From the IMG/VR virus record IMGVR_UViG_3300035670_013228, positions 62,001-126,000 of that record: a stretch of DNA of 64,000 nucleotides; one strand, given 5' to 3'. The notes beneath the pieces are model-generated. The model made no database searches. It was not told where the DNA came from and saw only the letters and a program-made list of their open reading frames with translations. The stretch is from a virus. The translations under genes were made by a program, and so were the position numbers. Below, piece by piece: positions 2 through 50,511 of the stretch (its first letter is position 1; each line of letters begins with the position of its first letter).

Positions 2-3000
2 GGTAGAACTAAACGACAAGGTATCGGCAATATTCCTGCTAAAACAGTACAAGAAATTAGAAAGGCTTTCAAAGCAGAGGTGGATAGAACAGCCGAACCA
101 CCTGCACCAGGATATATTAGTAGAGATGAGCAAATTTATAGATTCGCTGATATCGCTAAAAGCATATTAACTAGAGAAAAATTATGGAAATCAAGACCGC
201 TGGAAATAATGTCTAGATCTTCCACTAGTACTGGAGGTACTCAATCCAGAGATTTTGTTCCAAAAATGATTGCACAACAATTTAAACCATTTAAGAATGG
301 TGGAATTGCTAGTCGTCAAATTGGATATATAGATTATGATGTTATAGCTAATCCAGCTAATGAAGCGGTAGTATCTAAAGGAATGGAAGCTACCGGAGTA
401 ACCGGCCCAAGATTATATGCTGATTACTTAACAAATCTTGCTGTTAAGCGTCGCAAAGAAGCCGGATTAGAAAAACTGCGAGCAATCTATGGAGTTGCCG
501 GAGCAGGAAAAACTACACTTGCTCGAGGACAAGGCACAGACAAAGCATCATTAAGAGAAACAACAAGATTTCCAATATTAAGTCCAGAAGATATAAATAA
601 AGCCAGTGAGGTTATAGTATTAAGTAGTAGTGTATCTCAGAAAAAACTTGACGAAATATTTAGTAATGTTGATAGAGCATATACTCTTAGCACAACAACA
701 GCATCAGAAAAAGAAAGAATTAAATCTCAACGGGAGTCAAGAGATACTACAGGAATAGGATTAGAAGGAAGAAAACCCGGTGGTACAATTGGTATAGAAA
801 ACGATACTGCAATTAGCGAAGCTTTATTATCAGATAGATTGGGTAAAAAATCTGTAGTATTAGGACGCTCATCTAGTGGCAAACTAAGACGAAAAACCGG
901 AAATGAATTAGTAGAAGTTGTTAAGAAAAAAATAGGAGTAGCTTGGGGAGGTTTTGCTCCTATGACATTAGGTCACGAAAGTATTGTTGATAGTGCAAAA
1001 GCTATGGGTATAAGTCCAGAGGACTTCTTGTATATCGTTGGTAGTAATGAGGCAATCAAACTTGGAGACGCATCTTCGTATAGAACAGCAATTTTTAATC
1101 AAGACTCACGAGTACTATTAGCAAAAGCTGGTGCAGGAGCAAAAGGAGCAACAGTTTTACCAAAAGAAAAAGGATTCGAAATACCTTTAGGATTTGATAT
1201 AGGAGAATCTGGTGCTGATAGAAGAAAAGTATTATTACCAGGATCCGGTAGCGTTGCTTTTGTTGGCGACGAAAAATCAGAAGAAATATTACAAAAATAT
1301 AGAGATGCTGGCTACAAAACAAAATCCATAGGACGTATGGGCGATATTAGTGGAACAATGGTTCGAGATCTTATATCTCAGGGTAATTTAGGAGAACTAC
1401 AAAAAGTATTAAGTCCTAATGTTTATGAACTTATTAGTAATAATATTGGACGTATTCAAAATCGTGCTAATATTTTACCCAGTTTGATAGAACAAGTACA
1501 ACAAAGTCAAGCAGTTAAGTTAGCTGACGTTGAAAAACAAATAAAAAGTGTTGGTATTAGCAGAATTGATCAAAAGAAAATGAGCGATCCAGAATATGCC
1601 GCTAAGGCGGAGGCTTTATTAGAATTAAGAGCTCTTAGAGATAAAATTAAAAGCTCAGGATCATTTGAGCCATACAAACTATTAGATAGGTTAGCAGCCG
1701 ATCAACCAGAAAAGTACGGCTTAGACTTTACATTATCTAAACAAACCGAACCAAAACCAATAAGAACTGTTGGTCAACGACAAACTGCTAGTTTAGGAGG
1801 ATTAATTCAAAAATTAGCCGAAGGTGGAACAGTAGAAAGTATCGCTGCTAGAGATCAAAAATCTATTGAAGCTGTAGTGCTGGAACAATTGTCCAGCTTT
1901 GGAAATGCTAGTGGAGTTAAAAAAATATTAGGATTAGGAGCAGGAGACAGAGAGGCTAGCGCCATATTAAATGCTGGTAATATTAAAGCTGGTAAAAATA
2001 TAGAAAAAGCTATTAGATATATAAATAGAGCGTTAGCTAAGACAGGAAAAGCAGATGCTGCTAAAGAAGCAAAAGAAGCAGCTATGAGGAAAGTTGCAAT
2101 CGCCGGATTATTTCCATTAGATTATAATAAAGATTTTTCAGACTGGAAGTTGGAAGATGGTAGAGAAATTTATGGTTATGTTAGAGGATTTCAATCTAGC
2201 TTTTTACCACAAATAGAAGCTATGCAAGAGGCTAATAGAGCTACTCGCCAAAAATTTGCTGAAGATATTCAGGATACGGCAGCATTAGGCGGATTAGGTA
2301 ATAGAAATATTCAAGGACCAATTCAACCATTAGCAATAGATTTTGATGAAACATTAGCTCTTGGAACAAAAATGCTAGATGAAAATGGTAAAGAAGATTT
2401 ACCAGCCTATTCGGATAGAAAAAAGGTTATGGACAGCCTGGCCAAAGCTAGACCAACCTCTCTAGCTAAAAGATTGGCCAGTATAGAACAAAAAAATCCT
2501 GGATATGTTAGGATGTTTAGTCGTATCTTAACGGCCCGTCCTCAAAGCACAGCAGATATTATAACATCTACTCTTAATAGATTCGGATTACCATATATAG
2601 AACAAGATGTCACTGGAGTTAGTAAAGGATTAGGAACAGATATAGCAAAAGCAAAAGCTGCGAATGTTGCAAGAGCTGAAAAATTAATCGATGATAGTGA
2701 AGAAAATATTAGAGCAACAATGGCTGCTGGTAAAAGCACTTTTCGTTATGGCGAAGTACCAGAACTCAAAGGACCAGCAGAAGAAAAATTTGGACAATCT
2801 AATATTGAAGGAGGCTTGTTAGAAGCGGCACTATCTCAATTATTGGGTTATCCAATAAATGTTGATGCTTTACAAAGAAATAGGGCGATTGATTTTCCAC
2901 AAGGACTAGGTAGAGGTGCTCAACTTTTTGGATTACCTCCGAATATTGAAACAGAAGTAAAAAGGACTTTGGATGGAGACAGTTTTTCAAAAGCCAGAGA

Positions 3001-6000
3001 AGAATTTAGTAGATACTTTACAGAAAATCCACAAGCCTATGCTAAAGGAGGAGCAGCAACATTTGGCTCTGGATCATTTAAATTTCCCAAAAGAATAAGT
3101 AATGCTTATGTTCGGGAAATGGAAAAATTATTAGAACAAGAACAAATGGAGAAGGTTTTTGAGACGTATCCTCGTAATGAAAGAATGATTGTAGACGAAG
3201 AGGCTGTACAAAAAGGTTACGAATCTCCTTTTAGTAGAGAACTATTCATAAATTCATTTAAGGATAAAATAAGCAGAAATACAGTTTTTGAAAGAATGGG
3301 ACAATTTGCGAGAGTTATAGGATTGCCACCCACAGACTTTTTGTCTGCTATACCAACTCAGTTAGATTTTGGTGTTAATTATCCTGCTACAGCATTATTT
3401 AACAAGGATCCTTCTGGTCCAGGAACCAGAGGATTACAAGGAGTAGATTTAACACCATATGGTTATACTGAACAAGATAAACAAGATTTATTTGGATATA
3501 CTAAACTAATAGAAGAGAAAAAGAAACAAATATTAAAAACAATCAAAACTTCTGTTACAACATATGAAGATGGTAGTTTTGGTTATGATGTAGCTCTAGC
3601 AGAAAAACTAAGAGTAGAATTAAACGATCTACAAAAACAACAAAGATCTCTTATTGATAAAAATAATGCAGCCATTAAAGCTGCAAAAGAATCTAGATTA
3701 CAATCCGCAAACCAGAGTGGTCGTGGTAGCGTTGGTATAGCAACTAATCCGTTCAATACAAGTCAACGTCAAGACTATAGTATTTTATATCATGAATTAA
3801 CTCATCAACTTTTTAATAGTCTTAGAACTAAAAATGCTCAATCATTTGAAGCATACAAGGCAAAAGTTGCTAGTTTATTTAGTGGAAATAATGATGATGT
3901 AGCAGATGCTTTTGATGCTCTGGTGGGAAATACAGGATATAATAGTGCTGATGTTGCTTATGGAAGAAGTTATAAACTTAGTGGACTAAGCAGCTTGATG
4001 ATGGGATCGGCCAAAGAGTCATTTGCAAAATATGTTAATAGTGACCCAGAATATGTTCCAGAATTAAGAAAAACCTGGGCTGAAACAACCTCCACTACAA
4101 CCGCCAAAGCCTTTAAGCCACTTAATCCTAAAGTTAATGATATTTTATTAAGGGGTCAAATAAGTCAAGATGTTATAGATAAATATGAAGATAATGGCAA
4201 AGAAGAATTTTTAACAACACTAATACAAAAATTACCATTATTAGATGAAAATCTAAGCGGAGTTTTGGATAGTACTCTAAATGAGTTGTTAGGAGGCGCT
4301 GGAATAAGTAGACAAAAATTTGCTCTCGGTGGATTAGCAGATTCTAAAGATGCTATGTCTGGATTAATGCAAGGATTATATGGAAATAGAAGACAGCAAA
4401 CAGACAAAAAAGAAAAAGATTTTGGGAAAATAAGTATCACAGAAGACGGTGATATGCTTAGTGTTGGATATCTTAAAAATGAGAGTAGATCAGGATATGT
4501 ACAAGCAATGAAATACAAAGATAATCTATGGTATGTTGGATTATCAAAAGCTACTAAAGGATATGGACCAAGATTGTATGATGTGGCTATGGAGGCTGTG
4601 ACTGAAAAAGGAGGTATGCTAACTTCCGATAGAAGTATGGTCAGCTCTGATGCTCAAAAGGTTTGGGCTTATTACTTTAAAAATAGAGGAGATGTTAAAA
4701 AAACACCATTAGAACCAGAAAATTGGACTAAAAATCAAGCACTAATAGATCCTAAGCTTTATGGAAGAAAAGAAACATGGCCTCCAGCAAATGATCCGGC
4801 TTGGATACTACAGAGCGGCTATAGCAAAAGCCCCACCTTGCTTAATGATCCAGAACAAGTAAAAAGAAATAATAATAGAACACAAAAACCTGTTGATTCT
4901 AGAAGTATGGCTCTGTCATATTTTCAAAGAGCTGATGGCGGACCAATAAACCGTTTTGCTGATGGTGGTTCTGTTCCGGCTTTGGTAAGCAATGGTGAAG
5001 CTTATGTTCCTCCCAAACTTGCTAAACGTATTGGTTATGGAACATTAAATCGTATGAATCAAGCTGATAAAAATGGTATGGGACGATTTAGTGATGGTGG
5101 AATTAGTATATTTAAGGGGCCAGGAAGCGGAACTAGTGATAGTATACCAACAAGTTTACCTGTTGGAAGTTTTATAATAAGAGAAAAAGCTACAAAAGCC
5201 TTGGGATTAAATAGGGGCGGAAGTGTTGGAATACCACGTTTTAAAGACGGTGGTAGTCCAGGAAATCTAGAAGCAGAAATACAAAGAATATTAATAGAAC
5301 TAGAAAACTTTAAAAAAGCTATTTACGAAGGAGCTAGACAAGCGGGTAAAACAGCCACAGAAGCCAAACAGCAAGCAGACAGAGCGGTACTATCCAAAGG
5401 TTCAGAGATTCTATCTAGAACCGCAAAGCCTATAGATCCGAAAAACTTACCCCGAGGCAAAACACTTGAACAGGCCGAATCGGAAAGATCACAAACTCGA
5501 TCAGCCTCTTTTGAAGCACTAAGAAGGATGCAGGATCAATCTCCTATACTAAAGTCTAATACTGCAATACAAGTCTCTACTAGTCAAAAGATAACTGGAT
5601 TTTTTCAACAAATACTAGGTTTTTCTAAACAAACAGCACAAGCTCAACAAGACGGAGCTAAAGCTCAACAACAAGCGAGTAGCGCTATACAGCAATCTTC
5701 TGATCAACTACAGAATACCAGTAAAAAACAAAGTAACATTAATTTTGGGGGATTCGGTACGGCATTAGCTTTTACAGGACCGGCTCTTGCTAGTCAATTG
5801 GGAGAGGTCATAGGAGGAGCAACGGGTGCCGGCGTAGCAGGGGTCGCGTCTAATGTTTCAACATTTACTAGTATAGGTTCACAATTCGGTGGTATTGGAG
5901 CAATCGGAGGTTTACTAGTCGGATTAGCCACGTCCATAGATAGTTGGGGTGCTAGTATTGCAAATTTTGAAGCAACGGCTAGTGCTGCTAGAATCGATCA

Positions 6001-9000: not shown

Positions 9001-12000
9001 CGCAACATCTATTACCGGATCTCAAACTGGTGGTAATTTATTACAAGCTGGTTTGGCAACAGCGCAGTATATGAGTATGGGGGTTCCACCACCACTAGCC
9101 GCTGCTTTAGCTGCTGGCGCCATGACTACCCAAGAAGTTATGGGATATATGGGAGATATTGATGAAACAAGAGCGTCTGAGGCCAGAACACAATCTATTA
9201 GTCAATCTCAACGAAATGCTGGTAGAGTAGTTTCTAATGACATAAAGCGAAAACCAGGAGAAACTAACGAAGAATATAGAAGTCGCAGAATAGAAGAAAG
9301 AGCAGTCGAAAGAGTTGGCGCAAATAAACTTGTAGGATTTAATGCTAATGAAAGATTATGGATAGCTACTAAAGCTAGATTAACAAATGAAAAAGAATCA
9401 TTATTATCACGACTTGGTCCGGATAGTCCTCAAGTGGTAGAGATTGATAGAAAAATTAAAGAACATGATAATAGTCGTTCTAGTATTTTTCAAGATACAA
9501 GATTTAATAGCACTGGAGCTGTTTTAAGTTATATCGGATTAGGTAGTGCTACTACTGTTAACGAAACTAAGAGCGCGACAGAAATAGAAGCTGCTGTACA
9601 AAGTGAACAAAAATACCAAAAAGCCATGGCAGTTGCAAGAAGAGAAGAACAAGAATATTTTGCAGATATGGATGATAGAAGAGCATTAGCTAGACAAAAT
9701 AAGCTGGAAAAAGAATTAAAAGACAAAGGTATATCTTTGGATAAGGACGGTGATGACGAGTTAGATTCCGAGTTCGTAAAGGAAGAGGGGGATCCGGACT
9801 ATCAACGTTATCTGGATATGCAGGCTATATTCGATACGCAACAATTTATACAAAGGAGTGAGAAAGCAGCGGAAACCGAAGCAAACGACAAAGCCGAATT
9901 ATTAGAACTTGGCTTACCATCCTATGCTTCTGAGGCTCAAGTCGATGCGGCCCGGCAGATACGCGATGCTAAACAACAAGCCACACAGATAGAACAAAGG
10001 ATAAAAGAAGAATTAGATACGGATAATATTCCGGGAGTAGGCAGATTCAAAACATCGTCTCAATTACGAGCAGATGCGTCTGATAGAAATTTTGGTTTAC
10101 CACCAGAGGTTTTGGCTAGTGGTAACTTTAATGAGTGGCAACAATTATTAGCAAAGAAAGAAAAAATATTTGCAAAAATTGAAGAATTGAATCGTGGCAG
10201 ATTGGTATCTAGTGGTGATCCGTTTAGTGGTGATACTATTACCACCTCTTTGAGAGAAGCTAATGCAGATGAATTAGGGCGATATTTAACAGAATATCAA
10301 CAGCTAGCACAAATAGATAGTGATCTAGCACGGGCATATCAAACCGGATTAGAAAACTATGCAAGCACAAATTATCCAAGCGCAGATATAGATGAGGTAC
10401 GAAGTATGGCTTGGGATGATTATGATAAAGGTATACGATCCAAAGAAGCAGAAGCTCAAAAAAGAGACAAACTTGCAGCAAATAAAGAAGCTGATAAACA
10501 AGCTAAGATGTGGAAAACCGTAGCTAGTATAAGTAATGTTAAATTACCTTCTAAATTCGAGAATCCTGGTAAATTCTTAACTTTCAGATCAAATATATTA
10601 GATAAACTAAAGAGTAAATTTCCATTATCGGGAGATCCGTCAACAGATATTCAAACTATGCAACAATATGGTTTAGATGCTAATATAGCCGAGGCTATAT
10701 TCAAACCATTTGATAATAATCAAATAGCTGCTGTAGCATCTTTAATTCCTATTAGTGCAAATACTGATCCTGTTTTGCGCAGTCAAGTATCATTATTATC
10801 TCAAGCATCCAGCGCATCAATCGACACTGCTAAAAATAATGCATATTTATTAAATATTATACAAAAGAATCCTAAAGTTAATCAAAAATTTAAAACAGCT
10901 TTTATTAAAAGTGTTAATGATATAAATAACTTTAATAAAATGGTTACTGGATATAATCAATTAGATCCAACAAAACAAAATAATGCTAGAGCTAATTTAC
11001 TTAAAAGATTAACTAGACAAGGATATATTGATCCTAGAGATCCTAATGGTAGCATTGATAGACTAAATGCTTTGGGTGGCACTAATGTTTCTCAGTTCCT
11101 ATTTCCTAATCAACAAGCTCAAAATAAAGTTATCAGAATAGCCGGTGCTAAAAATTCAGGAGGTATAGTATATGCTAGTGGCGGAATGCTTGTGCCGTAC
11201 GAGCCCAAAGGAACTGATACTGTGCCGGCTATGCTTACCCCAGGAGAGTTTGTTGTTAATAAACAAGCAACAGCAAGAAATAAAGGATTATTAGAATCTA
11301 TTAATAGAAGCAAAGGAGGAAGTGTTAAATATTTAGCTGATGGAGGTTTGGCTTCAGATACTAGTGATAAAATTACAGTAGGCACTAAAGATGGAACTAG
11401 TATAGTAAGACAGAATCCATTGTATACAACAGTTCAAGATAATCTACGATATACTAAGCGATTAGATAGTATGGCTGTGAGTACAGAGAAAACATTGAAG
11501 GGTCATACACGATCTCTTGAGTATATAGGATCAGGAGTTACAAAACTTAATAATCGTATTGATTCGGCAAGTACTACATTAGGCGTACCATTTTCTAGAG
11601 GTGGAATAGTTTATGCTAGTAATGGAATGTTAGTTCCTTATCAACCAAAAGGCACAGATACTGTTCCGGCCATGTTGACTCCCGGCGAATTTGTGGTTAA
11701 TCGTCAAGCAACATCTAAACATAGAGGTTTGCTAGAATCTATTAATAGAAACAAAGGAGGAAGTGTTAAATATTTAGCAAATGGTGGGCCCTCTTCTGAT
11801 AGCGAAGTAACAAAAGTTGTTGACGGAGTGCAGATAACAAAACCTAGCGAGGTATTAAAATTAAGCAAAGAAAATTTATCTACTAGTAAAACTCTTTTAA
11901 CGAATAGTATCAAAACCAAAGAAATATTACAGAACAGTAACAATTATTTCGTTTCTAGTGATAAAACAGTTAATGAAAAACTAGATAAGATTTTACAAGA

Positions 12001-15000
12001 TAATAAAGGACTAAGAGAAGATACAGCGCAAGAACATAAGAAGACTAGAAGACATATTGAGCGTGAACATTTTCATACTAAAGAATATATTGATTATGCA
12101 CACTATGGGACTAGGGACAAGCTAGTGGCTGAACATGCTACTACGAGAACTCATATTACTGCCGAAGATAACGATACTAGACAATACGTTGCTGATCAGC
12201 ATGACAATACCAGAAAGTCTGTTGCTGATGAGCATAAGAAGACTAGATCTGAGATCCCTTCCCATCTGAAGATCTCGATGAAGGCAAGAGGAGCTGAAAC
12301 AGACGCACATACCACGATTGAGGCGATGGGTATTAAATCACATGTTACAGACGAACATAAGCTTACCAGAAACTTTTTGTTGCGTCAACAGCCTAAAAAT
12401 CTTGCTTCTGGCGGCATAGTTTATGCTAGTAATGGACAACTAATTAATTTTCAACCAAAAGGTACCGACACTGTTCCGGCAATGTTAACGCCGGGAGAAT
12501 TTGTTGTTAATGCAAAAGCTACTAAAAATAATTTAGATTTATTACATAGTATAAATAATGGTGGCAAACCATATAGTAGAGGAGGTGTTATTCATTTACA
12601 AGATGGTGGACTAGCAGTAGACAAAGGAGATAGAGTAGCAGAAGCATATAATGCTACATTAAAAGCATATGAACAACCCGAAGACGCTCAGCTAACGAAC
12701 AAAAAAATACCCATAAAAGGTGGTGAAGCTCAATATTTTCCAAAATTAGATTATTTTGCTCTATATGATAGACCTAGTGGGATTCCTGATGAAAACAGGA
12801 TCAGTGGCGATTCATTCTCAAGAGGATTTAGAATTCAGGTAAGAGAAGGAATAATAAGTAGAAGCAATGTACCACGAGAGCCTTCGGCCGCTGTTAGCGA
12901 ATTAGGAGACGAAGAACTTTCCACTATTTGGACAATTAATAAACAAGACTGGCTTAGCGATGAGGCCGCGAAACGAGGAGTTGATATTAATAGAGGTGAT
13001 AATCGTCCGTGGAAAGATAGAGTTCAGAACCGTCTTCCAACGGAATACCCAGAAAAATGGTGGGAAAAGTTCGATCAAGATCCGGAATTAAGAGAAAATC
13101 TGGCGACGCTTAACGCTGCCGCCAACACAATGGGTGGTAGCAGTAAAATTAGCCCTATCTGGGATTATGGACGGAACTCTAGAGATCAAGTTGAAACCAT
13201 TAGAAAGAAGATAAAAGATTATTTAGTAGCTAAAAAAATTAAAGAATCTGTTGCAGAAGACACAGCAATGGGAATATCAGAATCGGAAATATTAACATAT
13301 TTAGAAAGATATTCATCTTTAACAGACTTTAATAGTAACAAGAGCGACAAAGATGAAAAACTATATTTTTGGGAACAATGGTTGAGTAGAATTAGATTAT
13401 ATAATAGAGTCACAGGGAGAGAGGACCAGGAGGGACCGACTATTTATATACCAAATGATCAAACTCCGCAACAGAGAGAAGATGCTAGACTAGCAGCAGA
13501 AGCGAGAAAAGCTGAAGAGATCAGAAAAGAAGAACAAAGAAAAGCTGAAGCAACTAGAAAAAGAGTAGAAGACTATAAAACAGAGAGAACACGAGCACAG
13601 CGCGCACAAGATCCTGATGCTATTTGGAAATTACCTGGCGATAAAGAACAAACAACAAACGAATGGTCAGGAAAACCACCACAGCCTGAAAGAAGATGGG
13701 TTTCTCTAGATGAGAAATACGCCACCATTGGAACATTAGTTGCTTATAAAGATGGTAAAGCATCTATTCGTAAACCAACTGGTCAAACTATAGTTGTTGA
13801 TCAAAATAAATTAAGTGAAATGGATCAAAAGTATTTGACTGATCTTCTTATTGAACAAAAAACACAGCCTCTACCAACTCCGAAATCTCGAACTGGTCCG
13901 CAAACTTTGCCAACACCACAATCTCAAACGCGTCAGCAACCCTTACCAATCCCAAAACCTCAAACCGGTCCTCAAACAAAACCAGCCGATAGGCAATTAC
14001 CGACTCCCAGACCTCAAACCGGTCCTCAAACAAAGCCAATCCCCGAACCCAAGACTATTCCTCAAGATAATTCATATGTATGGTTAGGTGGACATAAAAT
14101 AAATGATAAACCACTAAAAGGAACTTACATTAATAAAGATAGTAATGGCGTACTTATACAAACTCCGGAAGGAAAAAATATCAGAGTAGATCCGTATACT
14201 TGGAATAAATATTCGACTCCAGAAGACAAAGCAAAAACCATGTCTCCTTCTGCTATGAGTCGTGGAGGAATAGTTTATGCTCAATTTGGAGGATTATTAA
14301 ATGATGATCAGTCTACAGTAGATATTTATAATCCACAAGCAATGAAGTCTACTTTAGACAGTTTAACAATGTCATTATTACCATATACCAGCAATGAAGT
14401 TGGACAACAAAGATTAATAATGGCTACAAATCAAAACTATGGCATAAGTGGTATAAGGCAATCAAATTTGCCGGGTAGAGCATCCGCAATGTTTGATGTT
14501 CAGTCTAGAAATTTAGTGTTTCGAGACAGAGTAATAAGATCAGCAACAGCAAAACACGAAATGGCTCATGCTTTAGCAAATAGTGTTCATGCTCCTCCAA
14601 CAACTAGAGATCAACAATTTGCAAATCAGATGGGACAATTTTCTTCCGAAGAAGCTCTTAGAATATGGGAAGCAAGAGCACAAATTAAAAAACAACAATA
14701 TATAGAGTCTGGGATAGACCGAGAACGTGTTGAACAACAATATCAGGCAGAAAAAAGGTTGCTGATACAACAACTTGGAAATAGAGGAAACGCTAGAAAT
14801 AGTATTGTTGCACAAATGGGAGAAGAACTTTACGAAAATAATTATCAACAACTGGCTGATACTAGTTATACCCTAGATCAACTAAATGCTATGCCTAATG
14901 AACTATTTGCTGTTATTGCTAGTATAGCAGACGCACCCGAATTTAGTAATATGCCGGCGAGTCAAGCTTTTTTGAAACAAAGCATGAGAACTTTAGGCTA

Positions 15001-16549
15001 TAGTAAAGGCGGAGTTGTTTATGCTAATAAGGGTATGCTAATTCCATACCAACCAAAAGGCACCGACACTGTTCCGGCCATGTTAACTCCTGGGGAGTTT
15101 GTTATAAACAGAGCAGCCACACAGGCTAATTTACCTTTATTACAAAGTATCAATAGCGGGAGGTATAATAAAGGAGGCATAGTTTATGCCGAGGATGGTA
15201 AATGTATTGGCAAGCAAACAGAAGATAAGTCAAATACAGAATCCAAACAACCAAAAAAGAAAGAACAATCTGCGAATCAGACACAAAATAATGTACAAGG
15301 AATAGATATTACCGATCCAAGACAAAGAGAACAAGCACTTGGTGGAATGTATAGAAGCTTAATTCCTTATACTACGGGAGAAGCTGGACAACAAAAATTA
15401 GCTATGGGTTTTACAGCATTGAAATCTGTAAGAATCAATATTAATCAGAGTAGACTTAAACAAAAGGGAGCTGGCGCGGAATTTGAGACATCTGGTCTAG
15501 GAACAGATCCTGGAACAATATATGTTCCTGGAAAAATGGTTGATACACCATTATTAAGGCACGAATATGGCCATGCTCTCATAGCAGCAACAACTCCTAG
15601 ACAATTTATGCAGAATATCTCTGGGGTTGCTCCTATAAGTCAATTTATCAACAGTTTAGAAAAAGCTAATGCTCGCATCAGGGTTACTCCACATAACTAT
15701 GAGGATGGTGGAGAAGTTGAGGATAAAAAAACACAACAACCATCAGAAAAAACCAATACTATAGGAATTTATAACAAAGAGCAGTTATTAAAAAATCCTC
15801 AGGAGGTATTCGCTACGCTCGTTCAATTGATAGGTAGTAACTTATTTCATAATTTGGGCGGGTCTGATGCTCTTCGTGCTGCTATGAAAATTTATGGATT
15901 TAATAAAGGAGGAATGGTTTATGCTAATAATGGTATGTTAATCGATTATAAACCAAAGGGTACGGATACTGTTCCTGCTATGCTTACTCCCGGCGAGTTT
16001 GTTATTAATCGCCAAGCAACACAACAAAATCTGCCCTTGTTGAGAGCTATAAATAATGGAGATAGCGCAATACCATATAGCAATGGTGGAATTGCTTATC
16101 TAAGACGAGGCGGCCAAACTAGTAACCTGTCGCAATCTTATGGATATGCTCAGCAATTTGACAATATTTCTAGGCAACTACAAGTATTTAATGGTATATT
16201 AATGGGCGCTAATCAGACACTAAATCAATTTGGAAATACATTACAACAAATTGGAGTCAATTTACAAAGAAATAATCAGAATATTGGCGGCGGTGTAAAT
16301 AATATTGATGGATTATCAAGATTTACATCAGCTTTTAATACTTTTATTACCCAATTGTCTTCTATTAGGATTCCAGAAATTATAACTATGCAACTAGCAC
16401 CATTACCACCAATTCAGGTAGTTATTACAGGAGCCGAAGCTCTTGCTGCTATAGAACCAGGACTACAAAGAACAATTAGTAGTCGTATAAATGAAGCATT
16501 GTCTTCTTTTGCTAATAATTTTGATGGAATAGATATTCAACAATCATAA
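2..16549 (+). CDS. Giant tape-measure-like polyvalent virion protein (5' end outside window)
   Basis: The frame is open from the left edge of the window, so the gene is partial; at least 5,515 residues are visible, and the GTG at 80 is probably an internal valine. Numbering residues from base 2: a P-loop GVAGAGKTT (~164-172); a nucleotidylyltransferase-like region with TLGH (~322) and ISGTMVR (~449); a HAD-like region with DFDET (~780), LTAR (~843) and IDDSEEN (~896); HELTH (~1264); an acetyltransferase-like segment (~1475-1580); a coiled-coil and hydrophobic tape-measure core (~1750-3700); PGEFVV-type motifs; an 11-residue repeat array; HEMAH (~4852) and HEYGH (~5187). Phage tape measures set tail length and can be ejected with the DNA. 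Embedded enzymes resemble the published 'polyvalent protein' concept. The tape-measure role is well supported by the Gly-rich/PGEFVV segments and position upstream of fibre genes; the activity of each domain is inferred from motifs only. Confidence 0.72.
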   Translation, partial: GRTKRQGIGNIPAKTVQEIRKAFKAEVDRTAEPPAPGYISRDEQIYRFADIAKSILTREKLWKSRPLEIMSRSSTSTGGTQSRDFVPKMIAQQFKPFKNGGIASRQIGYIDYDVIANPANEAVVSKGMEATGVTGPRLYADYLTNLAVKRRKEAGLEKLRAIYGVAGAGKTTLARGQGTDKASLRETTRFPILSPEDINKASEVIVLSSSVSQKKLDEIFSNVDRAYTLSTTTASEKERIKSQRESRDTTGIGLEGRKPGGTIGIENDTAISEALLSDRLGKKSVVLGRSSSGKLRRKTGNELVEVVKKKIGVAWGGFAPMTLGHESIVDSAKAMGISPEDFLYIVGSNEAIKLGDASSYRTAIFNQDSRVLLAKAGAGAKGATVLPKEKGFEIPLGFDIGESGADRRKVLLPGSGSVAFVGDEKSEEILQKYRDAGYKTKSIGRMGDISGTMVRDLISQGNLGELQKVLSPNVYELISNNIGRIQNRANILPSLIEQVQQSQAVKLADVEKQIKSVGISRIDQKKMSDPEYAAKAEALLELRALRDKIKSSGSFEPYKLLDRLAADQPEKYGLDFTLSKQTEPKPIRTVGQRQTASLGGLIQKLAEGGTVESIAARDQKSIEAVVLEQLSSFGNASGVKKILGLGAGDREASAILNAGNIKAGKNIEKAIRYINRALAKTGKADAAKEAKEAAMRKVAIAGLFPLDYNKDFSDWKLEDGREIYGYVRGFQSSFLPQIEAMQEANRATRQKFAEDIQDTAALGGLGNRNIQGPIQPLAIDFDETLALGTKMLDENGKEDLPAYSDRKKVMDSLAKARPTSLAKRLASIEQKNPGYVRMFSRILTARPQSTADIITSTLNRFGLPYIEQDVTGVSKGLGTDIAKAKAANVARAEKLIDDSEENIRATMAAGKSTFRYGEVPELKGPAEEKFGQSNIEGGLLEAALSQLLGYPINVDALQRNRAIDFPQGLGRGAQLFGLPPNIETEVKRTLDGDSFSKAREEFSRYFTENPQAYAKGGAATFGSGSFKFPKRISNAYVREMEKLLEQEQMEKVFETYPRNERMIVDEEAVQKGYESPFSRELFINSFKDKISRNTVFERMGQFARVIGLPPTDFLSAIPTQLDFGVNYPATALFNKDPSGPGTRGLQGVDLTPYGYTEQDKQDLFGYTKLIEEKKKQILKTIKTSVTTYEDGSFGYDVALAEKLRVELNDLQKQQRSLIDKNNAAIKAAKESRLQSANQSGRGSVGIATNPFNTSQRQDYSILYHELTHQLFNSLRTKNAQSFEAYKAKVASLFSGNNDDVADAFDALVGNTGYNSADVAYGRSYKLSGLSSLMMGSAKESFAKYVNSDPEYVPELRKTWAETTSTTTAKAFKPLNPKVNDILLRGQISQDVIDKYEDNGKEEFLTTLIQKLPLLDENLSGVLDSTLNELLGGAGISRQKFALGGLADSKDAMSGLMQGLYGNRRQQTDKKEKDFGKISITEDGDMLSVGYLKNESRSGYVQAMKYKDNLWYVGLSKATKGYGPRLYDVAMEAVTEKGGMLTSDRSMVSSDAQKVWAYYFKNRGDVKKTPLEPENWTKNQALIDPKLYGRKETWPPANDPAWILQSGYSKSPTLLNDPEQVKRNNNRTQKPVDSRSMALSYFQRADGGPINRFADGGSVPALVSNGEAYVPPKLAKRIGYGTLNRMNQADKNGMGRFSDGGISIFKGPGSGTSDSIPTSLPVGSFIIREKATKALGLNRGGSVGIPRFKDGGSPGNLEAEIQRILIELENFKKAIYEGARQAGKTATEAKQQADRAVLSKGSEILSRTAKPIDPKNLPRGKTLEQAESERSQTRSASFEALRRMQDQSPILKSNTAIQVSTSQKITGFFQQILGFSKQTAQAQQDGAKAQQQASSAIQQSSDQLQNTSKKQSNINFGGFGTALAFTGPALASQLGEVIGGATGAGVAGVASNVSTFTSIGSQFGGIGAIGGLLVGLATSIDSWGASIANFEATASAARIDQIFDTTTKAFERLSTNINDKGAFNDVIGNFQRIQNEEVKLAAFREKANAPSTLTGLGRRIGLLSTPTAETVGGEKAVSQQKAAAVAQQFLESQIQAEQDYKTVSQKLQQAGSSFDSLYASILEADTAYAVEVEKIKQSTDTEDRKNQKINELTAQKTQEIRTSIETRFADIERAKANKRLTKQLDFVSVSLTRTFTTLNQSINAAAFSLDQASESIQNIVNDSANFSNRLRTSNILENPRAYSRAEQNAAISQSAQFAGGDRQFIEQFARFSLDIEDSMTSALNQARAGGVTDPNVIGDRFGSLLTNQLDSIFGPQLGESIRSQFKTAINELTKGGTKLEDISTQDILDNIPGLNQQVQASKQVFEALNASAKFLENALNFVGASAKEYGSLQDKLAENIASSQNIIAQSNLSLQEALGKRISLSERRQARTSTAAIRAGVRPQDLNANFLSDRRDTLIQQKQNIEKSLDNLSQSFNKRDLAASRQFVELNKQLGLTESSIRQVNQALESLPQNIEQNINDIISEISRLQQKSVNITGASTSFGEKLLGSTPQELQELGTTFNILNSALSGNLNTIQQSQAAQLAYRQALDDGKTQQEAMVVAQQAFAGQTRNVLGLFNELSSMSGLEEDELRPIRAQLFKNLASSQGAGLENNPIFQTIINRLEQPPEESREIRELRNLLQVEQQSLIQSTETINQNTLDKQTAVLDAANQRFIDALNDIEVRFNTEQLRSMGLGLSRPGDIKPPAAPQARAKGGLIYASDGTYVNYQPKGTDTIPAMLSPGEFVVNAQATKNNLGLLRSINSSVGSGKTFSSGGVVYAADGGSSAAKGLFSNRYFPTLGPIWDSIKKLFSSAGKFSIPNLGNLGKLDLTQLLSSGVRGLGRLGGNIGNTLIDDFAKGGLKTAITNIVDAFSSLGNTFSLTSDGNLLPGQSDSVLDDVSKNLRSIFSKTKGAGVLFRYLGPLIGGVQGFMADTEKTKRNSYANAALGALTGSGTTMGDVGATSITGSQTGGNLLQAGLATAQYMSMGVPPPLAAALAAGAMTTQEVMGYMGDIDETRASEARTQSISQSQRNAGRVVSNDIKRKPGETNEEYRSRRIEERAVERVGANKLVGFNANERLWIATKARLTNEKESLLSRLGPDSPQVVEIDRKIKEHDNSRSSIFQDTRFNSTGAVLSYIGLGSATTVNETKSATEIEAAVQSEQKYQKAMAVARREEQEYFADMDDRRALARQNKLEKELKDKGISLDKDGDDELDSEFVKEEGDPDYQRYLDMQAIFDTQQFIQRSEKAAETEANDKAELLELGLPSYASEAQVDAARQIRDAKQQATQIEQRIKEELDTDNIPGVGRFKTSSQLRADASDRNFGLPPEVLASGNFNEWQQLLAKKEKIFAKIEELNRGRLVSSGDPFSGDTITTSLREANADELGRYLTEYQQLAQIDSDLARAYQTGLENYASTNYPSADIDEVRSMAWDDYDKGIRSKEAEAQKRDKLAANKEADKQAKMWKTVASISNVKLPSKFENPGKFLTFRSNILDKLKSKFPLSGDPSTDIQTMQQYGLDANIAEAIFKPFDNNQIAAVASLIPISANTDPVLRSQVSLLSQASSASIDTAKNNAYLLNIIQKNPKVNQKFKTAFIKSVNDINNFNKMVTGYNQLDPTKQNNARANLLKRLTRQGYIDPRDPNGSIDRLNALGGTNVSQFLFPNQQAQNKVIRIAGAKNSGGIVYASGGMLVPYEPKGTDTVPAMLTPGEFVVNKQATARNKGLLESINRSKGGSVKYLADGGLASDTSDKITVGTKDGTSIVRQNPLYTTVQDNLRYTKRLDSMAVSTEKTLKGHTRSLEYIGSGVTKLNNRIDSASTTLGVPFSRGGIVYASNGMLVPYQPKGTDTVPAMLTPGEFVVNRQATSKHRGLLESINRNKGGSVKYLANGGPSSDSEVTKVVDGVQITKPSEVLKLSKENLSTSKTLLTNSIKTKEILQNSNNYFVSSDKTVNEKLDKILQDNKGLREDTAQEHKKTRRHIEREHFHTKEYIDYAHYGTRDKLVAEHATTRTHITAEDNDTRQYVADQHDNTRKSVADEHKKTRSEIPSHLKISMKARGAETDAHTTIEAMGIKSHVTDEHKLTRNFLLRQQPKNLASGGIVYASNGQLINFQPKGTDTVPAMLTPGEFVVNAKATKNNLDLLHSINNGGKPYSRGGVIHLQDGGLAVDKGDRVAEAYNATLKAYEQPEDAQLTNKKIPIKGGEAQYFPKLDYFALYDRPSGIPDENRISGDSFSRGFRIQVREGIISRSNVPREPSAAVSELGDEELSTIWTINKQDWLSDEAAKRGVDINRGDNRPWKDRVQNRLPTEYPEKWWEKFDQDPELRENLATLNAAANTMGGSSKISPIWDYGRNSRDQVETIRKKIKDYLVAKKIKESVAEDTAMGISESEILTYLERYSSLTDFNSNKSDKDEKLYFWEQWLSRIRLYNRVTGREDQEGPTIYIPNDQTPQQREDARLAAEARKAEEIRKEEQRKAEATRKRVEDYKTERTRAQRAQDPDAIWKLPGDKEQTTNEWSGKPPQPERRWVSLDEKYATIGTLVAYKDGKASIRKPTGQTIVVDQNKLSEMDQKYLTDLLIEQKTQPLPTPKSRTGPQTLPTPQSQTRQQPLPIPKPQTGPQTKPADRQLPTPRPQTGPQTKPIPEPKTIPQDNSYVWLGGHKINDKPLKGTYINKDSNGVLIQTPEGKNIRVDPYTWNKYSTPEDKAKTMSPSAMSRGGIVYAQFGGLLNDDQSTVDIYNPQAMKSTLDSLTMSLLPYTSNEVGQQRLIMATNQNYGISGIRQSNLPGRASAMFDVQSRNLVFRDRVIRSATAKHEMAHALANSVHAPPTTRDQQFANQMGQFSSEEALRIWEARAQIKKQQYIESGIDRERVEQQYQAEKRLLIQQLGNRGNARNSIVAQMGEELYENNYQQLADTSYTLDQLNAMPNELFAVIASIADAPEFSNMPASQAFLKQSMRTLGYSKGGVVYANKGMLIPYQPKGTDTVPAMLTPGEFVINRAATQANLPLLQSINSGRYNKGGIVYAEDGKCIGKQTEDKSNTESKQPKKKEQSANQTQNNVQGIDITDPRQREQALGGMYRSLIPYTTGEAGQQKLAMGFTALKSVRININQSRLKQKGAGAEFETSGLGTDPGTIYVPGKMVDTPLLRHEYGHALIAATTPRQFMQNISGVAPISQFINSLEKANARIRVTPHNYEDGGEVEDKKTQQPSEKTNTIGIYNKEQLLKNPQEVFATLVQLIGSNLFHNLGGSDALRAAMKIYGFNKGGMVYANNGMLIDYKPKGTDTVPAMLTPGEFVINRQATQQNLPLLRAINNGDSAIPYSNGGIAYLRRGGQTSNLSQSYGYAQQFDNISRQLQVFNGILMGANQTLNQFGNTLQQIGVNLQRNNQNIGGGVNNIDGLSRFTSAFNTFITQLSSIRIPEIITMQLAPLPPIQVVITGAEALAAIEPGLQRTISSRINEALSSFANNFDGIDIQQS
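400..2760 (+). other. Embedded P-loop, nucleotidylyltransferase-like and HAD-like domains
   Basis: Three enzyme-like domains lie in a row inside the giant gene. Bases 491-517 encode a Walker A motif (GVAGAGKTT). Bases about 930-1450 encode GGFAPMTLGH, matching the (H/T)xGH motif of cytidylyl/adenylyltransferases, followed about 125 residues later by ISGTMVR, matching the ISxTxxR motif of the same superfamily. Bases about 2325-2760 encode AIDFDETLA, then ILTARP, then LIDDSEENI, the order and spacing expected for HAD motifs I, II and IV. A kinase-like P-loop plus an NMNAT-like domain recalls NadR, though the order differs and the substrate is unknown. Motif recognition is direct; function is inference. 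Confidence 0.55.
3560..4130 (+). other. Embedded HELTH metallopeptidase-like domain
   Basis: Bases 3791-3805 encode HELTH within the stretch DYSILYHELTHQLFNS. HExxH supplies two zinc ligands and the catalytic glutamate in zincin peptidases. It is preceded by a short Gly/Ser-rich strand-like stretch and followed by helical sequence, as in many small phage zincins. The third zinc ligand cannot be identified by eye. It is the first of three HExxH motifs in the same protein. Confidence 0.45.
4420..4740 (+). other. Embedded GNAT-like acetyltransferase segment
   Basis: The segment contains KGYGPRLYDVAMEAV followed by LTSDRSMVSSDAQKVWAYY. This resembles a family of phage proteins in which 'GYGPxLYD..ME' and 'DRxxVSxxAxxVWxYY' occur together and which are usually annotated as GNAT-like N-acetyltransferases. 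It sits between the HELTH region and the first Gly-rich 'DGG' repeats. The acceptor is unknown, and the assignment rests on remembered family resemblance. Confidence 0.45.
5730..11110 (+). other. Tape-measure core: hydrophobic segments and long helical stretches
   Basis: This part of the giant gene starts with a Gly/Ala-rich hydrophobic stretch (about 5740-5990, beginning FGGFGTALAFTGPALASQL), continues with long Gln/Glu/Lys/Ala-rich probable coiled coils (6000-8200), and contains a second Ala/Gly-rich hydrophobic stretch at about 8930-9150 followed by charged helical sequence (9150-10500). Alternating helical rods and hydrophobic segments is the usual layout of tail tape measures. No enzymatic motif is visible here. 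Confidence 0.6.
12026..12370 (+). repeat. 11-residue (hendecad) repeat array
   Basis: Seven consecutive 11-residue units run from about 12029 to 12262 with the pattern xEHxxTRxxIx, for example QEHKKTRRHIE, AEHATTRTHIT, DQHDNTRKSVA and DEHKKTRSEIP. A further DEHKLTRNFLL unit follows at about 12350. Eleven-residue periodicity is characteristic of right-handed or straight coiled coils. The invariant His and Thr-Arg positions suggest a regular surface and possibly metal or anion binding along the rod. It lies between two copies of the PGEFVV motif. Confidence 0.8.
13855..14070 (+). repeat. Proline-rich PTPxPQTGPQTKP linker repeat
   Basis: About five imperfect copies of a 10-14 residue unit (such as LPTPKSRTGPQT and LPTPRPQTGPQTKP) run in tandem. 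The unit is also visible as DNA-level repetition of 'cctcaaaccggtcctcaaac' type sequence at about 13967 and 14014, indicating recent unit duplication. Pro/Thr/Gln-rich tracts like this are extended linkers. Here it separates the charged region ending near 13.85 kb from the peptidase-like region that follows. Confidence 0.75.
14300..15000 (+). other. Embedded HEMAH peptidase-like domain (first of a duplicated pair)
   Basis: Bases 14555-14569 encode HEMAH. Upstream is LLPYTSNEVGQQRLIM, which matches LIPYTTGEAGQQKLAM in the next peptidase-like domain at 15360-15410. The two domains therefore look like paralogues. This one lies between a truncated and a full copy of the PGEFVV motif. A zinc peptidase role is inferred from HExxH; substrate and third ligand are unknown. 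Confidence 0.5.
15290..15900 (+). other. Embedded HEYGH peptidase-like domain (second of a duplicated pair)
   Basis: Bases 15560-15574 encode HEYGH in LLRHEYGHALIAATTP. The sequence upstream aligns by eye with the preceding HEMAH domain: the PYTxxExGQQxLxM motif, then a QSxL stretch, then HExxH about 55-65 residues on. A PGEFVV motif copy lies directly before and directly after it. This gives a repeat-peptidase-repeat-peptidase-repeat order in the last 2 kb of the gene. Confidence 0.5.
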
Positions 16550-48002: not shown

Positions 48003-48031
48003 ATTATACCAAAAAGACACACAGATGTCAA
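48003..48031 (-). promoter_or_regulatory. Perfect sigma70-type promoter for ssb
   Basis: On the - strand, TTGACA (48026-48031) and TATAAT (48003-48008) are separated by exactly 17 bases, a full match to the bacterial vegetative consensus. The -35 box overlaps the TGA stop of the upstream polymerase gene (48028-48030). Predicted transcription starts about 35 bases before the ssb ATG, leaving room for AGGAG. It is the only perfect consensus promoter I found in the window. Confidence 0.85.
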
Positions 48032-49644: not shown

Positions 49645-50327
49645 CTAAAAGAATCCTTAAATTTAATGTTCTTAGAGAGTCTTCTGTGTAGTTTCATAAA
49701 TCTAATCATTATATTCGCTGTGTCTATGACATCTTTGGAAGCATCGTGAGCACCTTCCTTTGATATTCCGAAATATTCTCTTAGTGAATCTAAAGTATAA
49801 CTCTTAATATCACTATTCTGTTCAAACCAATAAAATATAAGATTAATTACATCTATAACATCTCTAGGATAAAAAAGATCTGTTTTTCCTTCTTTATTTA
49901 TGTTTTTATATTTGCTACTAAGTCTATTGATTATGGGTAAATCAAATCTATATATATTATATCCAGCAGCTATTGGTGCTGTAAACTGACTTTTTTTAGA
50001 CGATCTTGTATGGTATTTATCGAGATAGTCTGTAAACATTTTCCAAGAATGTTCTTGAGCAGGATTTGCTTTCCATTTACTTATAATATCTTCTTTTGAG
50101 CAACCATAAACCTTGGCATGAAAATCTACAACATCTGTGGTATATACGTAGTCGGAATCTTTTTCAAGAGTTTCTGGCTTAAAATAAATATTAAATTCTG
50201 AATTGGGTATAATTTCTAGATTAATGGGATCGATTATCACAGCAGCCAATTGGACAGGACTGCAAGACTCTGCATCTACGCCGTCCGTTTCAAAATCAAA
50301 AACACAAATTTTGTTATAATTGATCAT
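49641..50327 (-). CDS. DnaQ-like DEDDh 3'-5' exonuclease
   Basis: This 228-residue product is a probable proofreading exonuclease. Motif I is VFDFETDG (D11, E13), motif II lies at YNIYRFDLPIINR (~D128) and motif III is AHDASKDV (H194, D199), giving the DEDDh set. It lies between the two halves of the split DnaE with 4-base overlaps on both sides (ATGA junctions), so it is produced with them. That position supports a role as the epsilon-like proofreading partner. It lacks the C-terminal alpha-binding extension of bacterial DnaQ as far as I can see. Confidence 0.85.
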   Translation of the reverse strand: MINYNKICVFDFETDGVDAESCSPVQLAAVIIDPINLEIIPNSEFNIYFKPETLEKDSDYVYTTDVVDFHAKVYGCSKEDIISKWKANPAQEHSWKMFTDYLDKYHTRSSKKSQFTAPIAAGYNIYRFDLPIINRLSSKYKNINKEGKTDLFYPRDVIDVINLIFYWFEQNSDIKSYTLDSLREYFGISKEGAHDASKDVIDTANIMIRFMKLHRRLSKNIKFKDSFR

Positions 50328-50509
50328 TCTGTTACAACTTCTACCTCTGTAATAGGAATTATGAAATGTTTTTTTGTTGAATCTGTGGCAAGAACAGCAT
50401 TGAAGAGTTTACAGCAAGATATTCTTTCGTCTTGAATTTTAATAAATTCTTTATTATCTGTTTTAAACTTGGTGCCAACCGAAATATCTGCAAATTTTTG
50501 TAGTGACAT
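50324..50509 (-). CDS. Small conserved phage protein of unknown function
   Basis: The 61-residue product MSLQKFADISVGTKF... resembles a family of about 60-residue phage proteins with an opening 'F.dl..G..F', a central ERISCCKxxNA motif and a beta-rich fold. No function is known to me. AAGGAG lies 7 bases before the ATG and is made by the last codons of the upstream polymerase half. It ends in a 4-base overlap with the exonuclease. Its place between polymerase halves and exonuclease suggests a role in the replisome, which is inference. Confidence 0.6.
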   Translation of the reverse strand: MSLQKFADISVGTKFKTDNKEFIKIQDERISCCKLFNAVLATDSTKKHFIIPITEVEVVTE

Positions 50510-50511
50510 AA

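Follow-up and report, generated by a model that had tools for sequence, protein, structure and literature searches.

The tape-measure gene, its rods and its linkers

The window analysed here is a stretch of 64,000 nucleotides (bases 62,001-126,000) of the virus record IMGVR_UViG_3300035670_013228, which comprises 177,880 bases. Its left part is occupied by a single tape-measure gene on the + strand, the frame of which is open from window position 2 to a stop at 16549 (codons 682-6196 and the stop codon). In the complete record, this gene starts at base 59,959, 2,043 nt upstream of window base 2, with an ATG preceded by AAGGAC; the full gene is 18,591 nt long and encodes 6,196 amino acids (aa), the sole stop codon being the terminal one. 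The long, left-open frame noted in the original prediction is thus real, and the gene is even larger than was apparent from the window.

No sign of unrelated genes joined by misassembly or a frameshift was found. The tape-measure gene is a single ORF in all 21 other records, with lengths of 2,346-5,768 aa. Two more contigs from the same sample, which are not independent, are identical to the record over 20,551 and 13,429 nt; they overlap one another by just 127 nt (window 8683-8809), and collinear homologues span this region in relatives G001 (q2330-4470) and G003 (q2639-3912). Given these single ORFs and collinear homologues, an assembly fusion as the source of the long frame was considered and dropped.

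The recognized tape-measure core is a match to PHROG 28 at residues 32-502 (PHROG profile search, E = 6.5e-22), and residues 1-680 match 16 PHROG families, of which 12 are tail-length tape-measure families. This family homology, combined with a tail-gene neighbourhood (the genes upstream encode baseplate-wedge-, tail-fibre- and virion-protein-like products), assigns the gene product to the phage tail tape-measure proteins. The core had been placed inside the window; it lies upstream, and the window holds the cargo, the rods and the C-terminus. The tail sheath family PF04984 was found in 0 of 8 records, which are possibly fragments (the control was positive in 3 of 14), and a search for the major capsid protein Gp23 gave no match anywhere, including the controls.

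A linker motif, designated M1 to M8 in this gene, is present in every one of 88 distinct tape-measure genes (322 copies in total); with this recurrence, we dropped the possibility of a chance repeat. In window coordinates on the + strand, as for all features below, the tandem motif M2 (4919..5215, aa 2321-2419) closes the N-side cargo region. It is followed by rod 1 (5216..8260, aa 2420-3434), a Gln/Ala-rich segment that appears coiled-coil-like by eye and is of near-constant length in relatives: the M2-M3 spacing is 891-1555 aa, with a coefficient of variation of 0.12 (n = 56 genes). M3 (8261..8425) separates rod 1 from rod 2 (8426..11158, aa 3490-4400), and M4 (11159..11320), M5 (11600..11761), M6 (12410..12586), M7 (15008..15178) and M8 (15908..16090) follow. 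The C-terminal tail with the stop codon (16091..16549, aa 6045-6196) is matched in relatives, for example, L011, G003 and G005, and a viral scan with the C-terminal part returned only the same genome. A match to PHROG 971, annotated as endolysin (E = 2.8e-11), is confined to a linker-rich part of the protein (aa ~4399-4547).

Enzyme-like domains of the cargo

The original prediction listed seven enzyme-like segments in this frame, and their motifs were found again at full-protein residues 845 (Walker A), 1461 (HAD motif DFDET) and 1945, 5533 and 5868 (HExxH). A Pfam search of the in-window part (codons 682-6196) gave no domain above the curated cut-off, and the assignments below come from motifs, profiles and predicted structures. 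By fold, the nucleotidylyltransferase (NTase) and the GNAT acetyltransferase-like segments are upheld; by motif, the HAD segment and the C-terminal HExxH pair; the P-loop segment, weakly nearest to zeta toxin, and the first HExxH segment are putative. Of the two stretches that were modelled, one has a clear NTase fold, and the other agrees with a GNAT fold at low confidence and shows no clear fold for the first HExxH domain.

The N-side cargo begins with a P-loop+NTase module. Its putative kinase-like half (446..913, aa ~830-985, with approximate borders) carries the Walker A motif GVAGAGKT at aa 845; a second G-x4-GK[ST] match, at aa 2458, is at the rod. Zeta toxin structures 6epi and 6epg rank 11 and 14 among the Foldseek matches (E = 3.1e-3 and 4.5e-3, probability 1.00), a weak similarity with a TMt of 0.29. 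The zeta toxin family gave no match at E 1 in the Pfam search of the in-window protein, and its absence from the VIA list of the first model, the rows of which are filled by the NTase so that the P-loop half is barely tested, excludes nothing. The NTase domain (923..1459, aa ~989-1167) contains GGFAPMTLGH and ISGTMVR. Its model matches NadD (5vir; VIA Z 13.8, rmsd 2.6, 157 aligned residues) and PPAT (5ts2; Foldseek E = 2e-6), and the two enzymes tie in VIA; a NadR profile match is weak (E = 0.0068). The predicted fold and the HxGH-type motif together confirm its assignment to the HxGH nucleotidylyltransferase superfamily. Among 20 copies of the P-loop+NTase module, 2 lack Walker A, 6 the GxFxPxxGH pattern and 7 the SGTxxR pattern, so that some copies may be inactive.

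The HAD-like phosphatase domain (2324..2758, aa ~1456-1600) contains DFDET, TARP and IDD. Counting the window's own copy, DxDxT is retained in 25 of 25 copies, [ST]ARP in 24 of 25 and DD in 25 of 25, and it is on these conserved motifs that we classify it as a putative HAD phosphatase; a PDB profile search gave weak matches to HAD-like hydrolases (best E = 0.15). We considered whether P-loop, NTase and HAD might together form a kinase-NMNAT-phosphatase pathway for NAD or RNA repair, and did not adopt this idea because the three modules are found separately, and in different orders, as well. The next domain, “FPxGL” (2780..3058, aa ~1608-1700), is of unknown function and was identified in 68 copies in 64 of the 88 genes, every copy being located between M1 and the next linker present.

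The metallopeptidase-like module Zn1 (3236..4288, aa ~1760-2110) contains HELTH at aa 1945 (window 3791-3805), and HExxH is retained in 14 of 14 copies. The Zn1 profile matched nothing in the PDB, metallopeptidases included, and the Zn1 region of the second predicted model is of low confidence, too low for its fold to be read. The GNAT acetyltransferase-like domain (4415..4837, aa ~2153-2293) is part of the same model, the mean pLDDT of which is 53. By title, all 50 listed Foldseek matches of this model are GNAT-type acyltransferases (E = 0.057-0.33), among them 5xxr, which we take to be RibT. The VIA Z scores reach 7.8, a level at which the tool cautions that the arrangement may be a common one, and rows 1 and 3 of the VIA list for the second model match another, helical stretch. 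GYGP is retained in 8 of 9 copies, and TKGYGPRL, a candidate acetyl-CoA-binding motif, resembles the pyrophosphate-binding loop. A GNAT fold is thus supported by a low-confidence model. PHROG searches with the HAD and GNAT segments gave no match, and tblastn with GNAT alone against phage records returned one 25-residue match (E = 0.3).

Two further metallopeptidase-like domains, copies 1 and 2 of ZnC, are located near the C-terminus (14342..15007, with HEMAH at aa 5533 and a Glu in PNELF; 15326..15907, with HEYGH at aa 5868 and a Glu in PQEVF). H, E, H, one Tyr and one downstream Glu are invariant in all six aligned ZnC sequences, and HExxH is retained in 7 of 7 copies. By these motifs, the pair represents one family with the HExxH and conserved downstream Glu characteristic of zincin metallopeptidases; against the PDB, the ZnC profile matched ribosomal and importin chains and no metallopeptidase. 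The hypothesis that all three HExxH domains form one family was dropped given that the ZnC model misses Zn1 and vice versa. HExxH is commoner than chance would give: the window protein contains 3 HExxH motifs vs 0.015 expected (at least 3 in 0 of 200 shuffles), and the first 29 genes, including that of the window, contain 17 vs 0.195 expected, with up to three per gene.

Placement in the family and exchange of cassettes within one reading frame

The 88 distinct genes include the first 29 and 59 survey genes, the latter remaining from 83 loci after 24 were dropped as repeats of genes already in the set (first 900 residues identical). The survey drew on 80 of 268 relatives, and 45 of the 88 genes are cut off at the 3' end (43 of the 59 survey genes and 2 of the first 29). 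The module models were built by iteration at E 1e-4 within this gene set only, so some remote members are possibly wrong. Of the 88 genes, 44 carry one or more of the six enzyme-like modules. Of 156 module copies, 148 are located between M1 and the next linker present, 2 between M3 and M4, and 6 after M4; none precedes M1 or lies within rod 1. The modules form 24 arrangements, 19 of these with two or more modules, and include true inversions of order (PN-HAD and HAD-PN, PN-Zn1 and Zn1-PN, ART-HAD and HAD-ART). Overall, the enzyme-cargo architecture of the tape-measure protein is common to a large, widespread group of uncultured phages.

An ADP-ribosyltransferase (ART) that occurs in relatives matches Pfam PF03496 in G010 and G001 with 37.3 and 24.9 bits (cut-off 23.4). 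Among the 13 ART copies found by HMM, all have the STS-type motif and 11 the ExE pattern; from these motifs and the family scores of G010 and G001, we assign it to the R-S-E ADP-ribosyltransferases. A match to ART-PolyVal in G001 is weak (16.7 bits vs a cut-off of 31.2). In a Pfam search of ten slots and C-side stretches, only an EF-hand in G017 exceeded the cut-off, and PADLOC yielded weak matches only (E = 0.0034, 0.0039 and 0.021). Against 50,697 phage records, tblastn with cargo residues 715-2314 gave no match; the core matched 32 records, with 22-27% identity among the 30 matches listed, and no close relative.

One block of the cargo is 92.1-94.0% identical to those of five relatives (G012, G013, G014, G015 and G021), against 54-58% for the core, and synonymous divergence is 0.07-0.36 in the block vs 1.20-1.47 in the core. 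High identity and low dS of the block against the diverged core show, at the level of aligned sequences, that cargo has been swapped between phages as cassettes inside one reading frame. The slot after the shared Zn1 block holds GNAT in the window gene, G013 and G021, is empty in G012, and holds another HExxH domain in G014 and other sequence in G015. The edges of the exchanged block coincide with GG linkers, which points to the linkers as likely recombination sites. Judging from substitution rates, the exchanged block is under purifying selection (dN/dS 0.07-0.22 for HAD, FPxGL, Zn1 and GNAT against the five relatives, or two in the case of GNAT). The multi-enzyme tape-measure protein of the original prediction is borne out, apart from the location of its core; the family-wide architecture and the cassette swaps had not been foreseen. 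Among the titles and abstracts listed by literature searches of open-licence papers in PMC, a scope outside which most subscription papers and preprints fall, none concerned multi-enzyme tape-measure cargo exchanged as cassettes.

The cargo region varies from 157 to 2,256 residues and does not exceed 300 aa in 16 of 74 genes; the cargo is therefore dispensable. Cargo and rod lengths correlate (Spearman 0.46, p = 4e-4, n = 56; slope 0.11, R2 0.19; uncorrected for kinship), and in an earlier, smaller set the correlation was not significant (rho 0.22, p = 0.31, n = 23). Cargo length is absent from the length table for 14 of the 88 genes and rod length for 32, and the earlier table omits 6 of the 29 genes, those without three clear linker places.

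A proposed role for the cargo and comparison with known systems

We consider it fairly probable that, as a whole, these features reflect a cargo-bearing tape-measure protein whose swappable enzymes enter the host ahead of the DNA. The N-terminal core and the two rods would measure and fill the tail, and enzyme beads with glycine-rich linkers between them would be allowed in two places, from the core to rod 1 and past rod 1 towards the C-terminus. Because the linker sequences bordering the beads are alike, recombination could replace beads across phages and leave the frame intact. At infection, the tape-measure protein would exit the tail before the DNA; the enzymes, taken along into the envelope or cytoplasm, might then alter host targets prior to phage gene expression; the metallopeptidase beads may cleave the chain, freeing other beads. 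Action of the enzymes in the host at infection is plausible by analogy with the virion RNA polymerase fused to the tape-measure protein of P23-45. We give about even chances to the protein being a reloadable delivery rail, in which linker recombination trades payloads (kinase/nucleotidylyltransferase, HAD phosphatase, acetyltransferase, ADP-ribosyltransferase and metallopeptidases) that are ejected before the genome, a phage counterpart of contractile-injection effectors. The correlation of cargo and rod lengths does not follow from the cargo-bearing explanation and counts against it, as do the fit of folded domains inside the tail tube, of which it gives no account, the dispensable cargo, the P-loop+NTase copies that lack motifs, the failure of the Zn1 and ZnC profiles to match PDB metallopeptidases, and the lack of a close relative among the 50,697 phage records.

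Alternatively, the beads might work in the producing cell, where metallopeptidases would cut the chain before or during assembly, only the rods would stay in the tail, and the other enzymes would act late and not on entry. The multiple HExxH motifs, up to three per gene in the first 29 genes, are compatible with such processing, and P1 DdrB is processed before packaging, likely by its own metallopeptidase domain (PMC5512222). In the same paper, however, N4 vRNAP is packaged unprocessed, and late action gives no reason for fusing enzymes to the tail ruler instead of encoding them in separate genes. In 22 records, P-loop+NTase (5/5), HAD/FPxGL (17/17) and ART matches are all within the tape-measure ORF. 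We regard this explanation as unlikely. Still more doubtful is the idea that the cargo works solely at the cell envelope, like the peptidoglycan-cutting domains of known tape-measure proteins, and that the beads count as part of the ruler, making tails very long and variable. Deletion of a 114-aa enzyme motif shortened the TM4 tail by ~20 nm, so enzymes embedded in a tape measure can contribute to its length (PMC1796659), cell-wall precursor sugars are targets of zeta-toxin-like kinases (PMC5512222), and the positive correlation between cargo and rod lengths points the same way. Nevertheless, none of NTase, HAD, GNAT and ART is a peptidoglycan hydrolase; Pfam families of lysozymes, transglycosylases or M23 peptidases are absent from the matches of the in-window protein at E 1 and from the 10 families matched at E 0.01 by N-side cargo, both of the window gene and of 26 relatives. 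In addition, counting every residue at 0.15 nm would imply a tail of ~930 nm here.

That the gene is an artefact of misassembly, or that the enzymes are functionless relics, we consider scarcely credible. One assembly breaks at window 8683-8809, and expected motifs are missing from some P-loop+NTase copies, but an artefact is contradicted by all 21 other records, in each of which the gene is a single ORF, and decay by the low dN/dS across the exchanged block (0.07-0.22) and by the motifs retained in HAD (25/25), Zn1 (14/14) and ART (STS, 13/13).

Delivery ahead of the DNA, if true, would make the tail ruler a second site, besides head-borne ejection proteins, for action on the host before phage genes are expressed, and our findings suggest that the ruler also serves as a rail on which enzymes are delivered to the bacterium. 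The cassette exchange described here moreover represents recent, genuine mosaicism in tape-measure proteins, which, by its own account, a published survey of mosaic proteins had been unable to confirm (PMC10684548). The near-constant rod and the cargo of 157-2,256 residues also make it testable whether a folded insert adds to tail length, as the embedded 114-aa domain did in TM4 (PMC1796659). If the cargo counts, tail lengths in a single family would span ~350-930 nm, as calculated for whole proteins of 2,346 and 6,196 aa with 0.15 nm per residue.

Several known systems share parts of this organization. The likeness to polyvalent proteins noted in the original prediction holds insofar as several effector-like enzyme domains, remotely assigned, are found in one polypeptide. 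Iyer et al. (2017, PMC5512222) describe combined MPTase, ART, GNAT and zeta-like kinase domains and predict their injection; their text, as available, never mentions “tape”, whereas the protein described here is built on the tail ruler and has a linker motif separating its domains, and the NTases in that paper are of the Pol-beta type, unlike the HxGH-type NTase of the window. The TM4 tape-measure protein likewise contains an embedded enzyme that is dispensable for growth; it differs in that this is a cell-wall enzyme, with a peptidoglycan-hydrolase motif, and a single motif was studied (PMC1796659). Effectors of the Sle1 type, from contractile injection systems, share a tape-measure-like platform with diverse exchangeable domains, but belong to bacterial injection systems and apparently carry one functional domain each (PMC13277306). 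The nearest precedent for delivery is gp96 of P23-45, a 5,002-aa tape-measure protein with an N-terminal virion RNA polymerase that performs pre-early transcription on entry (PMC10770324). Like the protein described here, gp96 is a tape-measure protein of giant size whose N-terminal part includes an enzyme, and it also contains a metallopeptidase domain; in place of its one polymerase, the phages analysed here carry several small domains in a row, which resemble transferases, phosphatases and peptidases, vary in number and order and are swapped as cassettes.

A single giant tape-measure frame and its surroundings

The open frame that reaches the left edge of the window (2-16549, plus strand) is real. 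In the source virus record (177,880 bases, of which the window is bases 62001-126000), it reaches further upstream, where an ATG at base 59,959 opens a gene of 18,591 nt that encodes 6,196 residues, with the sole stop at its end (full-protein residue n begins at window base 3n-2044). The possibility that a misassembly joined unrelated genes was not borne out. Two contigs from the same sample, which are not independent, are identical to this gene across the compared 20,551 and 13,429 nt and have just 127 nt in common with each other (window 8683-8809), as at an assembly break; collinear homologues span this stretch (q2330-4470 in record G001 and q2639-3912 in G003), and the corresponding gene is one frame in 21 of 21 other records (2,346-5,768 aa). 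In locus L002, a terminator-like inverted repeat, read by eye, lies immediately 5' of the tape-measure gene start (15905-15940).

The tape-measure core of the original prediction was recognised, albeit outside the window: residues 32-502 match PHROG 28 (E 6.5e-22, PHROG profile search), and tail-length tape-measure families account for 12 of the 16 PHROG families matched by residues 1-680. Residues 1-520 match 32 phage-collection records (22-27% identity among the best 30 of 32), at features whose annotation reads tape measure, lytic transglycosylase or hypothetical. Matches to baseplate-wedge, tail-fibre and virion-protein families come from the genes upstream. No tail sheath gene was found in the 8 records searched, which may be fragments. 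Downstream, long ORFs of 1,517, 1,332 and 2,730 aa (window 16564-21117, 24429-28427 and 30052-38244) are without a PHROG match at E 0.001. A T4-type DNA polymerase is encoded at 48028-52359 (minus strand) in two ORFs that match complementary parts of PHROG 405 (positions 51-616 and 614-1073), with a 228-aa ORF between them (49641-50327) that resembles a DEDD exonuclease by motif. Core relatives also occur in bins (L104, L105 and L106) that bear the labels Chitinophagia, Verrucomicrobiales and Woesebacteria; given that these labels disagree, they do not fix the host.

Linker-bounded cargo across the family

The modules are bounded by a recurring linker motif (M) of about 55 residues, with a consensus like GG-VYA-PKGTDTVPAMLTPGEFVVN, present in nine copies, variants included, in the window protein, where other segments are separated by shorter glycine-rich GG linkers. 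The order is core, M1, cargo (P-loop+NTase, HAD, FPxGL, Zn1, GNAT), M2 tandem, rod 1, M3, rod 2, M4, M5, M6, ZnC, M7, ZnC, M8 and tail; on the C side, linkers flank a proline-rich repeat (5 units of 42 nt, window 13871-14074).

An initial search of viral contigs returned 21 loci, one from the same genome as the window; from a second, with a core alignment as query, 80 of 268 reported loci were retrieved, and a scan of bacterial genomes yielded 3 metagenome-assembled contigs. After repeat removal, 88 distinct genes were compared (29 first-set and 59 survey genes, of which 2 and 43, respectively, are incomplete at the 3' side). All 88 contain the linker motif, and 44 carry one or more of six enzyme-like modules, in 24 arrangements (5 single-module, 19 with two or more), including the inverted orders PN-HAD/HAD-PN (PN, P-loop+NTase), PN-Zn1/Zn1-PN and ART-HAD/HAD-ART. 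FPxGL, a module of unknown function, was detected in 64 genes, HAD in 25, P-loop+NTase in 20, Zn1 in 14, ART (ADP-ribosyltransferase) in 12, GNAT in 9 and ZnC in 6; some remote members may be wrong because the HMMs were iterated on the same 88 genes at E 1e-4. The cargo-bearing architecture is thus that of a family, not a single-genome curiosity.

Almost all module copies (148 of 156) lie between M1 and the next linker present (some 3'-incomplete genes are without M2), 2 between M3 and M4, and 6 after M4; none of the 156 precedes M1 or falls inside rod 1. The M1-M2 cargo ranges from 157 to 2,256 aa (CV 0.70, n=74), and rod 1 from 891 to 1,555 aa (CV 0.12, n=56); M3-M4 spacing is more variable than rod 1 (CV 0.42, n=36). 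Speaking against their strict separation, longer cargo tends to go with a longer rod (Spearman 0.46, p 4e-4, n=56; slope 0.11, R2 0.19; uncorrected for kinship); the correlation was not significant in the first 23 genes.

Exchange of cargo modules and selection

Cargo modules have been exchanged between relatives. From residue ~1280 to 2125-2459, the window gene is 92.1-94.0% identical to those of G012, G013, G014, G015 and G021; in the N-terminal core, identity to the same five is 54-58% (residues 1-516 or 5-559; G021, 58%), or 64-69% in its more conserved residues 130-500. Likewise, synonymous divergence (dS) is 0.07-0.36 in HAD, FPxGL, Zn1 and GNAT (GNAT, two pairs only), against a nearly saturated 1.20-1.47 in the core of those five pairs. 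The dN/dS of these four modules (0.07-0.22; GNAT in two pairs) shows purifying selection. Block edges coincide with GG linkers, and G012 and G015 display the same high-block, low-core pattern without involvement of the window gene. Depending on the gene, the slot after the shared Zn1 block is occupied by GNAT, by an HExxH domain of another kind or by other sequence, or is empty. In the more distant G001 and G016, HAD dS (1.34-1.38) is at the level of the core, and therefore, exchange there was not recent. For HAD, the module surpasses the core in identity by more than 15 points in 14 of 300 pairs, with corresponding counts of 13/91 for Zn1, 4/36 for GNAT, 39/2,274 for FPxGL, 3/190 for P-loop+NTase and 3/77 for ART; these are clear cases, yet a minority of the pairs.

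Putative enzymes and known systems

Because no domain in the in-window protein passed the Pfam curated cut-off, the enzyme assignments are remote, and the at least six predicted enzyme-like domains fared unevenly. P-loop+NTase (four homologues, 31-39% identity; AlphaFold mean pLDDT 75, pTM 0.64) best matched an uncultured-phage 'cytidyltransferase-like' protein in the viral structure library. The model of its NTase part matches the NadD/phosphopantetheine adenylyltransferase fold, with the two enzymes tied (VIA Z 13.8, rmsd 2.6, 157 aligned; Foldseek E 2e-6); for the P-loop part, the nearest named match, zeta toxin, is weak (Foldseek ranks 11 and 14, E 3-5e-3). GNAT-type acyltransferases fill the best 50 Foldseek rows for GNAT, with modest E values (0.057-0.33; VIA Z up to 7.8). 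A 213-aa stand-alone relative of this module occurs in a 10,848-base contig (L103), which, alone among 14 loci tested, has no linker motif. The HAD-like assignment relies on three motifs kept across copies (DxDxT 25/25, [ST]ARP 24/25, DD 25/25). HExxH is present in 14 of 14 Zn1 copies; a second model, which also covers GNAT (mean pLDDT 53), gives Zn1 of the window protein no clear fold. The two ZnC copies of the window protein are 24% identical, and the second is 20-34% identical to four relatives; the HExxH motif, one Tyr residue and a downstream Glu are invariant in all 6 sequences. HExxH is more frequent than expected by chance (17 vs 0.195 in 29 genes; 3 vs 0.015 in the window gene).

In two relatives, the cargo region contains ART domains above the Pfam cut-off, the only PF03496 matches across 22 records, both within the tape-measure frame. 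These recall T4 Alt, an injected ADP-ribosyltransferase. A weak ART-PolyVal match, below cut-off, at residues ~846-902 in G001 (L010) suggests that this protein may hold two different ADP-ribosyltransferases. In G015 (L041), the sequence in the slot of the window GNAT (residues ~1900-2270) is without a Pfam match and begins with LYHGS, a motif reminiscent of ADP-ribosyltransferases. EF-hand calcium-binding motifs above the Pfam cut-off lie on the C side inside the G017 tape-measure protein (L080:1662-4949).

By analogy, we infer that the cargo enzymes would be packed in the virion and ejected along with the tape measure; the metallopeptidases might then release other cargo, a step that has been suggested for polyvalent proteins (PMC5512222). 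An embedded domain of the TM4 tape measure, described as counting towards ruler length (PMC1796659), argues against a simple cargo picture here. Delivery of this kind has its direct precedent in P23-45, where a tape-measure protein of 5,002 aa carries a virion RNA polymerase (PMC10770324). Enzyme-bearing tape-measure proteins and, separately, multi-enzyme polyvalent proteins are already known; the joining of both kinds in a modular, exchangeable series of putative enzymes on a tail ruler was not found in the literature searched, and would be what is new here.
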